Shown piece after piece: positions 11,678 through 15,487 of a stretch of 64,000 nt of DNA (position 1 is its first letter; each line of letters starts with the position of its first letter). The stretch is from positions 2,099,001 through 2,163,000 of the forward strand of contig NZ_CP014143.1 of assembly GCF_001750105.1 (NCBI RefSeq). Direction: 5' to 3'. The notes beneath the pieces are model-generated. The model worked only from the letters and a program-made list of their open reading frames with translations. It did no database searches and was not told where the DNA came from. This DNA is from Microbulbifer aggregans (lineage in GTDB: Bacteria; Pseudomonadota; Gammaproteobacteria; Pseudomonadales; Cellvibrionaceae). The position numbers and the translations under genes are program-made.

Positions 11678-12823
11678 TCAGGCAGCAGTAGCCGGGGAAA
11701 GATGGAACTGCTCCATCATGATGGACAGGCGCTTGCGCTGCATCTTGAGGCTGTACTCCAGCTCCTTCACCCGCGTACGGATGGCGGCGCTTTCCCACTT
11801 GGCCAGCAGGCGCTCGCGGGCATTTTCATAGCGGCGGGATTGAAGCTCTTTCCACTCGCCGAGGGCGGCAGAAAATTCCTGCGCTTCTTTTTCCAGCAGT
11901 TCGCGCCAGCTGTCCTTGTGGCTGGACTGCTGAAGCTTCTGCTCCGCCCGCTTGAACTGCATGTCCAGCATGGCACGTTGAATGCGCATGGCGGGGACGG
12001 TCTTCAGGTTGCGGGCCAGGCCCACCCAGCTGGCAGTTTTGATCAGCCATTTGGTCGGATCCCACTGGTACCAGCGGATACCGTTGCGGTAATCGGTCTG
12101 AAAAATGTGATGGTAGTTGTGGTAACCCTCGCCGAAGGTGAAGAACGCCAGCAGGTCATTGTCACGGGCTGTGTTCTCATCGGTGTAGGGGCGGCGGCCC
12201 CAGATGTGGGCGAGAGAGTTGATAAAGAAGGTGGTGTGGTGGTTGACCACAATCCGCAGGACGCCCGCCAGCAGCAGCATACCGATGATGTCCCCGGCCC
12301 AGATGCCGAGCAGCAGCGGCAGGCCAAGATTCATCGCCAGGGTGACCGGGATGTAGTGGTTGTGCTGGAACATCACGATCTTATCCCGCTGCAGGTCCTT
12401 GGCATTGTCAAAGTCTACTTTGCCACTGGGGTAATCGCGCAGCATCCAACCGATATGTGAGAACCAGAAACCGCGATTGGCGGAATAGGGGTCGTGATCG
12501 TTGTCGTCCACGTGGCGGTGGTGGCGGCGGTGTCCGGAGGACCAGATCAGGATGGAGTTCTGCAGCGCTGCGGCACCGAAAAGGGCAAACAGCCAGCGCA
12601 GGGACCAGTGTGCTTCATACGTCCGGTGGGACCAGAGTCGATGGTAGCCGGCGGTGATGGAAAGGCCACACAGCGCGCCGTAAACGGCAAAAGCTGCCCA
12701 GGCCTGCCACTGGTATCCGTGCATGATTCCATAGAGGGGAACCAGGATCAGTGCTGCCAGGGCGGTGGCGGAGAACAGAATGGTAGTGACCCAGATTCTC
12801 GGGGCCTCGGAAACTGTATTCAT
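11678..12823 (-). CDS. Acyl-CoA/acyl-lipid delta-9 type fatty acid desaturase
   Basis: A 381-residue integral membrane di-iron desaturase. The three histidine boxes are HRLWSH at residues 61-66, HRRHH at 98-102 and EGYHNYHH near 233-240, with four hydrophobic segments in two pairs around them, which is the stearoyl-CoA desaturase (OLE1/DesC) pattern that introduces a cis double bond with O2 and an electron donor. Beyond the usual core (about 280-300 residues) there is a C-terminal extension of about 90 residues rich in Glu, Arg, Gln and Lys with a coiled-coil look (residues about 285-375), whose role is unknown. It is monocistronic. Its 5' side faces the sigma-54 RNA locus. No FabR or DesT operator was recognised. 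Confidence 0.9.
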   Translation of the reverse strand: MNTVSEAPRIWVTTILFSATALAALILVPLYGIMHGYQWQAWAAFAVYGALCGLSITAGYHRLWSHRTYEAHWSLRWLFALFGAAALQNSILIWSSGHRRHHRHVDDNDHDPYSANRGFWFSHIGWMLRDYPSGKVDFDNAKDLQRDKIVMFQHNHYIPVTLAMNLGLPLLLGIWAGDIIGMLLLAGVLRIVVNHHTTFFINSLAHIWGRRPYTDENTARDNDLLAFFTFGEGYHNYHHIFQTDYRNGIRWYQWDPTKWLIKTASWVGLARNLKTVPAMRIQRAMLDMQFKRAEQKLQQSSHKDSWRELLEKEAQEFSAALGEWKELQSRRYENARERLLAKWESAAIRTRVKELEYSLKMQRKRLSIMMEQFHLSPATAA

Positions 12824-13082
12824 CTTACAACCTTGTTTGTGCGCAACAGCGGTCAGGCGGCTCCCTCGTGAGCCCGGCCGGAACTCTCTCCGGCAACCCA
12901 GCGCGTAACTTCCACTGCTGGCCTGATCCTAACCGATCGGCACCAGTATGGCACCCCGTTCCGGCGCCAACAGTACTGATGTTGGGTTACTGGTCACAAG
13001 TGCGAGCTTTTGGTGCGCAGGGGAGGAGTTTTGTGCCGACATGGTTCACGAAGCTCCCCTGAGTGCCGCCGGAAATGATCGA
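12824..13082. other. Intergenic stretch upstream of the desaturase and of the sRNA locus
   Basis: About 260 bp with no supported gene. A 64-codon plus-strand frame at 12868-13062 has no RBS and is not protein-like. The desaturase promoter should lie at its left end, but no clear -35/-10 pair is visible on the minus strand. Confidence 0.4.
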
Positions 13083-13165: not shown

Positions 13166-13182
13166 TTGGCATGAGCGTTGCA
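13166..13182 (+). promoter_or_regulatory. Sigma-54 (RpoN) promoter
   Basis: TTGGCATGAGCGTTGCA matches the sigma-54 consensus YTGGCACGrNNNTTGCW at all specified positions but one (T for C after TGGCA). GG is at 13168-13169 and GC at 13180-13181, with exactly 10 bp between. The predicted start is about 13192, at the foot of a stable hairpin. This is the best RpoN site noticed in the window. Confidence 0.75.
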
Positions 13183-13191
13183 ATTACTCTG

Positions 13192-13342
13192 ACGTGGGTC
13201 GAAAGACCCGCGCTCCGGGAAACCCTCACGGGGTTATGGCGAACCGCCGGCGCAAGCTGGCAACAAGTTTATAACGCTGCGTGACTTCCCGTTTTCTCTC
13301 ATCATCGCTGATTCAGGCCCCGCATTGCGGGGCCTTTTTTTT
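13192..13342 (+). ncRNA. Putative sigma-54-dependent small RNA, about 150 nt
   Basis: No ORF lies between the RpoN promoter and the terminator at 13316-13342, yet the interval is highly structured. An 8-bp stem capped by GAAA (CGTGGGTC-GAAA-GACCCGCG, 13193-13212) sits at the predicted 5' end. A 5-bp stem follows (AACCC-TCACG-GGGTT, about 13221-13235), then a stem with a GCAA tetraloop (GCCGGC-GCAA-GCTGGC, about 13247-13262). A single-stranded, pyrimidine-rich tract (CTTCCCGTTTTCTCTC, near 13285-13300) comes before the terminator and could base-pair with a purine-rich ribosome site. This layout is that of a trans-acting bacterial sRNA. It does not resemble CrcZ (no array of AAnAAnAA motifs), Qrr, GlmY/Z, 6S, tmRNA or 4.5S RNA as far as I can recall them. 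An attenuated leader for the kinase gene at 13478 is the alternative. Confidence 0.6.
13316..13342 (+). terminator. Rho-independent terminator of the putative sRNA
   Basis: GGCCCCGC-ATT-GCGGGGCC (13316-13334) is followed by eight T residues. It is a textbook plus-strand terminator with no protein-coding gene in front of it, which is the main reason to postulate a non-coding transcript. Confidence 0.9.
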
Positions 13343-13477: not shown

Positions 13478-15487
13478 GTGGCACTCGTGTCTGAGCTCAC
13501 TCCCGATCAAGTTACCGACGCCCCCTTGCAGCTGGCCACTCCGGACGAGTTGGACCAGCTGGACGCTGAGCAGTTACGCAGCCAGGTCCAGTACCTGCAG
13601 CGGCTGTTGCTGGACGTGGATTCCGGTTACTTCGAATGGCACCCTCAGTCTGGGCATTGCCGTGCGGAAGGGGCTGTCTGGTCTCCCTTTGATGCCGATG
13701 CGGTTCGTGCGCTGGCTGGCCTTTTCACCGGAGACGCACTGGCGCTGGTGCATTCCGATGACCGGGATCGCCTGCGGGTTCTGCGGCAGAGGCTGGATGG
13801 GCCCGGTGGGTTGGCGGATGCCACATTCCGCGCATATGACAGCAGTGGCCGCATGCGTTGGCTGCGAATCTGGGCCCGCTCTTTCGAGACGCAGGGGCGC
13901 GACGGAGAACAGCTGCATTTTGTCCTCGGCGGTTGTGCCGACTATACAGAATCCCTTGCCGGCCGAGATGCCTCGAGTCTGCCTGCTGAACGTGCCTTGC
14001 AGGCACTGGCCGGCGTCGGCGACGGCCTGTGGGAGTGGGATCTGCGGGCGGACGAGGTGCTGTTCGACGACGCCTGCTGGGCGCTGATCGGTTTCGAGAC
14101 CAGCCCCCTGGATGGCGACAGTCGTAGCTCCCTGGCGCAATGGAAGCGGCGCATGCTGCCGGAGGATTACGACCGGGTCTCCCAGGCCATGCAGGACGCC
14201 GTGCGCGAACGAATCCCCCTCGATGTCGAGTACCGTCTCTGGCATCGCGATGGCGGTATTGTCTGGCTTCGCTGTCGCGGTCGGCTCCAGTGCAATCGCA
14301 AGGATGAACCGCTGCGGTTATTGGGAACCCTGCAGGACGTGACCGGCAGTCGCGAGACCTTTTCCCGGGTGGAGAGGGAGCTGGAGAGCTTGCGCGGTGA
14401 AAATGAGCACCGAGCCGGCCTGTTGTTCAGCCTTAGTCACGAACTCCGCACGCCGCTCAACGCCATTCTCGGCTACAGCCAGATGGTTGAGCTGGATCAC
14501 ACCCTCAATACCGATCAACGGCAGCGGCTGGGGGAGATCCGTCGCGCGGGCCAGCATTTGCTTCACCTCGTCGGGGATGTTCAGGAGTTGGCCAGAATCG
14601 ATACCAATCGGGTGGCGCCGGCAATGGAAGCGGTGCAGCCGGCCAGCCTGGTCAGCGACTGCAAGCGGCTGCTTGAGCCGTTGGCCGAGACGCGCAAGGT
14701 CTCGCTCATATTCGAGCCGTTGGGCTGGGAATCCGCCTATATCCGCGTTGATCCGGTCCGTTTCAAGCAGGTCGTGCTCAACCTGGCCGGTAACGCCGTG
14801 AAGTACAACCAGGAGGGCGGCCGGGTTGTGATCAACTTCGCCCCCCAGTCCGAGGGCTGGCTGCGTCTTTCTATTCTCGATACCGGCAAGGGTATACCCG
14901 AGGAGCGGCGAGCAGAGGTATTTGAGCCGTTCAACCGTCTCGGGGCCGAGAAGAGCCAGATCGAGGGCACAGGAGTGGGTTTGGCAATTGCCAAGCGCCT
15001 GACGGAGGCCATGGGTGGGCGTATTGACTTCGACAGCCACGAGGACCAGGGGTCGGTATTCTGGATCGAGTTCCCCATGATCGATGCGCCCGGTGATGTG
15101 CTGAGGCTGCGCCCGGAGCCGGGCAGCGAAACGGTGTTCCCGGAATGTAATTTGCTGGTGGTGGAAAACAGGCCCGCCCTGCTGGCGCGGTTACGGGGGA
15201 TGTTGGCGGGTGCGCCGCAGGTGAAGCTGCTGGTCGCTGCAGATGCCGTCGAGGCAATTTTCATTGCCCGCAGTCAGGCGGTCGATGCCGTACTTTTTGA
15301 TAACTCTTTACCGGGAATGTCGGCGGCTGACCTGTCTGGAATTTTCTCCCGGGATCCGCGTACTGAGGGTGTGCGGCTTATCGAGATTGGTGGTGGGGGC
15401 AGCGATCCGGTGGACGCGGCATTGCCAGCGGAATACGGCCCGGGCGAGCTGGCCCGGGCCATGGAGGTGGCCGGCGCGGCCACCTAG
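13478..15487 (+). CDS. PAS-containing hybrid sensor histidine kinase with degenerate receiver
   Basis: A 669-residue cytosolic sensor kinase with no membrane helix. Two PAS-like domains (about residues 45-150 and 168-290, the second with the DGLWEWDL and YRLWHRDGGIVWLRCRGR signatures) are followed by HisKA (SHELRTPLNAILGY, His near 322), HATPase (N box NLAGNAVKYNQ near 434, G1 DTGKGIPEE near 468, G2 GTGVGLAIA), and a C-terminal receiver-like domain (about 555-660). The receiver keeps a candidate phosphoryl Asp (VLFDNSLPGM) but has VVEN where the acidic pair should be and no clear Lys, so phosphotransfer is doubtful. The start is GTG at 13478 or GTG at 13487. No cognate regulator is adjacent; the upstream neighbour is the putative sRNA. 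Confidence 0.88.
   Translation: MALVSELTPDQVTDAPLQLATPDELDQLDAEQLRSQVQYLQRLLLDVDSGYFEWHPQSGHCRAEGAVWSPFDADAVRALAGLFTGDALALVHSDDRDRLRVLRQRLDGPGGLADATFRAYDSSGRMRWLRIWARSFETQGRDGEQLHFVLGGCADYTESLAGRDASSLPAERALQALAGVGDGLWEWDLRADEVLFDDACWALIGFETSPLDGDSRSSLAQWKRRMLPEDYDRVSQAMQDAVRERIPLDVEYRLWHRDGGIVWLRCRGRLQCNRKDEPLRLLGTLQDVTGSRETFSRVERELESLRGENEHRAGLLFSLSHELRTPLNAILGYSQMVELDHTLNTDQRQRLGEIRRAGQHLLHLVGDVQELARIDTNRVAPAMEAVQPASLVSDCKRLLEPLAETRKVSLIFEPLGWESAYIRVDPVRFKQVVLNLAGNAVKYNQEGGRVVINFAPQSEGWLRLSILDTGKGIPEERRAEVFEPFNRLGAEKSQIEGTGVGLAIAKRLTEAMGGRIDFDSHEDQGSVFWIEFPMIDAPGDVLRLRPEPGSETVFPECNLLVVENRPALLARLRGMLAGAPQVKLLVAADAVEAIFIARSQAVDAVLFDNSLPGMSAADLSGIFSRDPRTEGVRLIEIGGGGSDPVDAALPAEYGPGELARAMEVAGAAT

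Follow-up and report, generated by a model that had tools for sequence, protein, structure and literature searches.

A predicted sigma-54-driven small RNA of the genus Microbulbifer with likely NtrC control

Results

A putative RNA gene between desaturase and kinase genes

The window (the whole analyzed stretch of DNA, 64,000 nucleotides from Microbulbifer aggregans) carries, between a fatty acid desaturase gene and a PAS/histidine kinase gene, a region whose sequence delimits a putative RNA gene with its boundaries, promoter, paired upstream boxes, conserved structure and seed:

11678..12823, - strand: gene for a fatty acid desaturase on one flank, oriented divergently from the RNA (Pfam PF00487; synteny)
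13001..13017, + strand: NtrC-type box 1 (TGC-N11-GC form), 165 bp upstream of the -24 element; 9/14 letters of the enteric consensus, weak as a single box
13032..13048, + strand: NtrC-type box 2, exactly 31 bp after box 1; 10/14 letters of the same consensus, likewise weak singly
13166..13182, + strand: sigma-54 -24/-12 promoter (GG at 13168-13169, GC at 13180-13181, ten bases between)
13191..13194, + strand: predicted transcription start, placed by promoter spacing 10-13 nt past the -12 GC
13193..13212, + strand: hairpin P1, 8 bp (13193-13200 / 13205-13212) with a GAAA loop, from the fold
13216..13291, + strand: hairpin P2, with a CGGGAA/TTCCCG base and an apical part variable in length and sequence
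13292..13309, + strand: unpaired pyrimidine tract TTTTCTCTCATCATCGCT, the proposed base-pairing seed, from folds and conservation
13315..13342, + strand: intrinsic terminator, 9-bp stem (13315-13335) and T-run
13478..15487, + strand: flanking PAS/histidine kinase gene (Pfam PF08447, PF00512, PF02518; synteny)

The RNA is about 150 nt long in the window and 123-129 nt in most relatives, and it appears to be a free-standing gene, with a predicted promoter and a predicted terminator of its own. A previous interpretation of this DNA from its letters (hereafter the sequence-only reading) had placed it between a desaturase and a hybrid kinase, and this position was confirmed: the desaturase lies on one side and the kinase on the other in 34 of 36 loci (L001-L036), the exceptions being L007, where the contig ends before the kinase, and L036 (G006), where an ATP-grasp gene occupies the place of the desaturase. 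In the longer loci, the ATP-grasp gene and suhB are found further outside. The receiver-domain match (PF00072) in the flanking kinase is below Pfam's cut-off.

Occurrence within and beyond the genus

A search with a 186-base query was positive for 36 of the 37 genus genomes covered (E <= 8.3e-10), G007 (80% complete) yielding none by this query, and model R1 added two more, bringing the coverage to 38 of the 39 congeneric genomes examined (out of 48 genus genomes used for other pattern searches). When R1 was run on 390 genomes of the order, with strict filters at which weak matches are lost, all ten genus genomes scored at least 87.8 bits among the matches listed; at least 126 non-genus genomes were also matched, at most at 36.6 bits among the matches listed, and no homologue was recognised among these matches for the 380 other genomes of the order (which include the 21 non-genus genomes of the 186-base search). 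No piece of the Microbulbifer tract was found in 32 outgroup loci (L076-L095; L294-L303, L310 and L312, L310 being the same place as L084), of which two represent PrrF and a third is PrrF-like. Exact records of the 20-base core of the RNA comprise 26 named Microbulbifer entries and one other. That single match from outside the genus, an exact 20-mer in L058 (labelled Dehalococcoidia), sits within a long open frame and was taken as a chance occurrence.

The nearest sister genus (G434) encodes the closest kinase outside Microbulbifer (44% identity), adjoined by a desaturase with 79% identity, and the gap between these two genes holds neither a sigma-54-like site nor TTTCTCTC. Within the genomes searched, the RNA appears to be restricted to the genus. 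No report of the RNA was found in a search of open-licence literature (a scope that leaves most subscription papers outside), in which the Microbulbifer text consulted gives RNA counts only.

Two divergent copies were noted. M. okhotskensis (G004) has the pair of desaturase and RNA twice; the second desaturase is broken, and the second, upstream RNA copy (L037:4035-4184) is decaying (66 bits, terminator degraded) while retaining the sigma-54 promoter and the 31-bp box pair. The most divergent RNA copy, that of L036 (G006; 87.8 bits), has a changed tract and stands without the desaturase neighbour.

A conserved sigma-54 promoter

The promoter string at 13166-13182, read directly, is TTGGCATGAGCGTTGCA, and the motif TGGCAYGNNNNTTGCW has a single exact match in the window. 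Across the whole genome, a single contig of 3.86 Mb, the pattern TTGGCAY-N5-TTGCW has exactly three matches, including the RNA locus and glnA. Letter frequencies alone would predict about two, and the exact match by itself is little proof; with one mismatch allowed, there are 72 genome matches vs. 25 for the reversed pattern. Across the genus, conservation carries more weight: GG-N10-GC is kept in 38/38 loci (none dropped), spaced from the 5' end of the RNA as such a promoter should be, TGGCAY is present in all 38 and TTGCW in 37. The near-consensus RpoN promoter with an exact GG-N10-GC that the sequence-only reading had described is therefore both present in the window and conserved in every locus, and these data support a sigma-54-driven RNA.

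Paired NtrC-type boxes and predicted nitrogen control

The commonest 8-mer within 300 bases upstream, TTTGGTGC, is half of an NtrC box and occurs in 30/38 loci. Relative to the NtrC-box consensus (TGCACCAnnnTGGTGCA, taken from the accessible text of PMC8743547), the first box fits [TC]GC-N11-GC in 36/38 loci. A second half-site (at least 5 of 7 letters) lies exactly 31 bp further on in 36/38 loci when sites are chosen with knowledge of that spacing, vs. 0-6 of 37-38 loci for other spacings from 14 to 60 bp; if the choice of the first site rests solely on its own score, the best-scoring partner is at 31 bp in 30/38 loci. Single-locus box scores beat shuffles (p <= 0.05) in 18 of the 38 loci, which, being related, do not constitute independent trials, and among 3000 random 250-nt pieces of the window (the own locus not excluded) six contained a 31-bp box pair. 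The boxes lie either at -105 to -131 or at -153 to -183 relative to the promoter (two distance classes, with L036 apart), and the 31-bp spacing is constant. A recognisable box pair is absent in the most divergent genome (G006, L036). These putative paired boxes are a new observation that goes beyond the sequence-only reading.

NtrC is encoded in the genome (761 bits, cut-off 558.6). The combined action of NtrC and sigma-54 on glnA is established in enteric bacteria, and the glnA promoter of the same M. aggregans genome, directly upstream of the Gln-synt_C gene, has an exact sigma-54 site and two boxes (11/14 letters each) that are likewise 31 bp apart. The glnK-amtB promoter has one box (10/14) and no 31-bp pair, its nearest pair being 33 bp apart. 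The paired NtrC-type boxes upstream would tie the RNA to nitrogen limitation, and its control by NtrC and sigma-54 is likely.

Another enhancer-binding protein, that is, an NtrC-like response regulator other than NtrC itself, might instead drive the same sigma-54 sRNA. Consistent with such an activator, a further three proteins give matches that span most of the NtrC model (below its cut-off), and the second box reads TGG(T/G)TCA rather than TGGTGCA; box 1 and the 31-bp spacing, on the other hand, match the glnA promoter of this very genome, and we hold this alternative to be unlikely.

RNA fold, covariation and the terminator

The segment 13190-13342 folds at -66.5 kcal/mol (z -4.06; none of 200 shuffles as good). 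In the alignment, 95.4% of 944 cells are paired vs. 33-49% for slid versions, with 95.7% and 93.6% for the two helices of P1, 99.5% for the base and 84.6% for the inner helix of P2, and 100%, in all 35 rows, for the terminator stem. Both-sided changes are seen in 4 of 8 P1 pairs and in neither helix of P2. Cells with both-sided changes number 22 vs. 6.9 in shuffles (0/500 as high), pairs with such a change 5 vs. 3.1 (32/500 as high), and pair types 21 vs. 20.1 (156/500 as high). Covariation support is thus real but moderate, and there is none for P2 in the structure counted. Mean column identity amounts to 0.997 for the tract, 0.947 for the terminator and 0.768 for P1; no other element is as conserved as the tract, and P1 retains its pairing while its letters change.

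The 8-bp GAAA-capped hairpin proposed earlier is indeed present at 13193-13212, with its pairing conserved across the alignment, and the proposed rho-independent terminator (9-bp stem and T-run) is paired in 35/35 rows. The sequence-only reading had been staked beforehand on conservation of the stems in relatives; the stems are kept, and the reading survives. Taken alone, the terminator is not above chance, one terminator-like site having been found in a 1.4 kb stretch vs. 1.3 expected. More generally, the parts are singly not decisive, and it is their conservation that lifts the RNA well above chance.

The location of the RNA on the same strand as the kinase, whose ORF begins about 135 nt past the terminator in a conserved gene order, would also be compatible with a regulated 5' leader (attenuator), its transcript initiated by sigma-54, in which readthrough of the terminator sets kinase expression. 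We regard this as distinctly unlikely: the terminator stem is kept in 35/35 rows and appears in their minimum-energy folds, the distance between RNA and kinase varies (about 90 nt in L018 and about 270 in L016), and conservation peaks in an unpaired tract rather than in a stem that could switch.

Seed tract and coding potential

Within the tract, TTTCTCTCATCA is present in all 35 aligned rows, and the 20-base core of the RNA, CGTTTTCTCTCATCATCGCT, is exact in 34 of them. The sequence-only reading had pointed to a pyrimidine-rich single-stranded tract, and the folds bear this out, the tract being unpaired and nearly invariant; in the window copy, a weak hairpin of 4 bp can form in its final portion.

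Tracing of ATG, GTG and TTG starts through the 35 alignment rows revealed no ORF common to all: in some rows the frames close within 1 to 39 codons, and in others they continue, still open, into the terminator. Two of the frames read across the tract and meet no stop before the RNA ends (from a GTG in 28/35 rows and from an ATG in 18/35). The tract is near-invariant even at third codon positions, so these open frames are taken to reflect non-coding constraint. A small peptide was considered and rejected, since no start yields one common to all 35 rows, and a listed 268-codon ORF from 13281, which passes through the terminator, is an unlikely gene. The RNA is almost certainly non-coding, as the sequence-only reading had it in claiming that no protein is encoded. 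Its broader description of a structured sigma-54 RNA without an ORF likewise agrees with a locus in which promoter, stems, tract and terminator are conserved and reading frames are not.

Candidate mRNA targets

The 12-mer TGATGAGAGAAA, with at most one mismatch, has ten genome matches, one being the RNA itself. Four of the other nine are no more than 30 nt away from probable start codons, namely those of petA, of a lipase and of two further genes (which we take to be oxidoreductase-like and DUF3604-like), and one of the nine is inside the start of a short ORF.

Within the genus, petA leaders carry GATGGGAGA in 30/30 shown and TGATGGGAGA in 29/30; among sister genera (12 leaders read of 26), TGATGGGAGA is found in three and ATGGGAGA in seven more. 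Predicted duplex energies, which overstate free pairing because the 28-nt piece used includes the 3' arm of P2, range from -21 to -28 kcal/mol in Microbulbifer (29/30 leaders read) and from -16 to -26 kcal/mol in sister genera without the RNA (again 12 of 26). As the site is complementary also in genera without the RNA, it predates the RNA or is independent of it. In L201-L230, the petA leader keeps GCTGTGATGGGAGA (or a version 1-2 letters off) before the start, further upstream being variable, and this conservation extends partly beyond the genus.

Lipase leader matches were obtained in 17/48 genus genomes, 14 of them strong; the 12-base match is present in three of these 14, and GAGAGAAA occurs near the start in eight. 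A genus-wide pattern search placed a site near an ATG in 38/48 genomes vs. 10/48 for the reversed pattern, a control that is unmatched for purine-rich ribosome-binding sites; seven of the listed matches fall on the RNA gene itself, read in antisense, and the sites inspected (30 loci and 20 more) form a subset. Overall, petA, the lipase and, in some species, secreted or TonB-receptor-like proteins (names that are in part our assumption) may be regarded as candidate, unproven targets.

Two further recurrences were seen. TGATGAGAGAAA stands just before the start of one gene, presumably secreted hydrolase-like, in six species (L195, L196, L274, L277, L278 and L288), and in two species (L280-L282, L284 and L285) several paralogous genes for a protein of secreted appearance (MFRSI.K.LLMWLL...) share TGATGGGAGA(A/G)ATAG(G/A)AATG at their starts.

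Discussion

The analyzed locus is almost certainly that of a real small regulatory RNA of the marine genus Microbulbifer. We consider it likely, with reasonable though incomplete assurance, that it represents a stand-alone, NtrC/sigma-54-activated sRNA of nitrogen limitation that would act in trans by seed pairing. In the mechanism that we infer (including transcription, dependence on NtrC and RpoN in the cell, use of Hfq, targets and direction of effect), phosphorylated NtrC would, under nitrogen limitation, occupy the two boxes 31 bp apart upstream, and sigma-54 RNA polymerase would then transcribe the sRNA gene, leading to accumulation of the RNA. The transcript would fold into P1 and P2, followed by the single-stranded seed UUUUCUCUCAUCAUCGCU and a terminator that ends in a U tail, and it would act in trans, probably together with Hfq engaged via the U-rich tail. 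Pairing of UUUUCUCUCAUCAUCGCU with purine-rich ribosome-binding sites would lower the translation of selected mRNAs. As judged from sequence, such a mechanism by seed pairing is probable.

This analysis provides a predicted sRNA for which gene, promoter, enhancer and seed are all resolved. Since the RNA is present in almost every genus genome examined and is recognised nowhere else, and since the sister genus keeps the flanks without the RNA, it offers a clean case for studying the origin of a new sRNA under nitrogen control and the way in which it acquires targets. It would also help to probe nitrogen control in a genus that has drawn attention for its degradation of polysaccharides.

Comparison with known regulatory RNAs

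To our knowledge, RpoN-dependent sRNAs are few and NtrC-dependent ones are fewer. Qrr and GlmY are RpoN-dependent, and Qrr, CrcZ and GlmY are in Rfam. The claim of the sequence-only reading that the RNA resembles none of Qrr, CrcZ, GlmY and NrsZ holds in that none of the Rfam families attains its cut-off within the window, and it has to be relaxed for NrsZ, which is alike in regulatory logic.

At a low threshold, the top Rfam family is PrrF (RF00444), with 33.1 bits (E 2.7e-4) for the window and 36.4 bits (E 4.5e-5) for L018, both read against a gathering score of 90. The two RNAs share a GNRA-loop hairpin, a second hairpin, a UCUC(C)UCAUCA tract and a GC-rich terminator, in the same order. 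They differ in that PrrF is Fur-controlled, whereas the Microbulbifer RNA is without a Fur-box-like promoter, and in that the PrrF core CAGGCUAAUCACGG, present in L294, L310 and L302, is absent from it. With a score below 90 and with both the core and the Fur box absent, the RNA is not classed in the PrrF family.

A diverged PrrF (an iron-sparing sRNA) that has exchanged its Fur-controlled promoter for one of the NtrC/sigma-54 type, and in which a PrrF-like response would thus be triggered by nitrogen shortage, could account for the rank of RF00444 and the matching hairpin order and tract. It would also fit the fact that R1 had picked up, outside the genus, two PrrF genes of another family (L294 and L310; 154 and 143 bits) and one PrrF-like gene of another genus in Microbulbifer's own family (L302, 61 bits), that the RNA body without terminator aligned to L294 and L310 with z 1.0 to 3.3 vs. 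shuffles (4 of 7 rows), and that the leader of petA (Rieske Fe-S) is complementary. Nevertheless, we judge this origin quite improbable, given scores far below 90, the missing CAGGCUAAUCACGG core and Fur-box-like promoter, and an alignment of the RNA body to the PrrF-like L302 that is at chance (z -1.25 to 1.28, 4 of 7 rows). In addition, L018 without its terminator gave no PrrF match up to E 10; because the PrrF model is matched end to end, this loss lowers the probability of kinship and does no more. Very improbable, in our estimation, is the more specific scenario of a PrrF-like body rewired in the Microbulbifer lineage from iron control to NtrC/sigma-54, by which nitrogen shortage would repress respiratory proteins rich in iron, for example the Rieske subunit of cytochrome bc1.

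The L302 element itself (L302:299-433, minus strand, G282) is a PrrF-like RNA with Fur-box-like promoter letters that scores 61 bits vs. the cut-off of 90; the ORF beside it is one that we take to be htpX. The Rfam PrrF cut-off may be too strict for this locus.

The stand-alone NtrC/sigma-54 sRNA that we favour is closer in its predicted control to several Pseudomonas RNAs, as these are presented in the accessible text of two reports. In Pseudomonas stutzeri A1501, NfiR and NfiS are both lost in an ntrC deletion and NfiS is sigma-54-dependent; nfiR has two NtrC boxes of the TGC-N11-GCA form, and NfiR, whose start is not at a sigma-54 position, pairs with nifD mRNA (PMC6606865). The presence of two putative NtrC boxes upstream is a likeness to NfiR, compared here by description only. 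CrcZ is RpoN-dependent, and NrsZ of Pseudomonas aeruginosa is an intergenic, base-pairing RNA of about 226 nt that is made under nitrogen limitation by NtrB/C and RpoN, adjoins ntrC, is processed and activates rhlA (PMC8395346). Unlike NrsZ, the Microbulbifer RNA lies between a desaturase and a hybrid kinase gene, at 2.11 Mb, whereas ntrC is at 0.84 Mb; in regulatory logic, again compared by description only, the two would appear to be alike.
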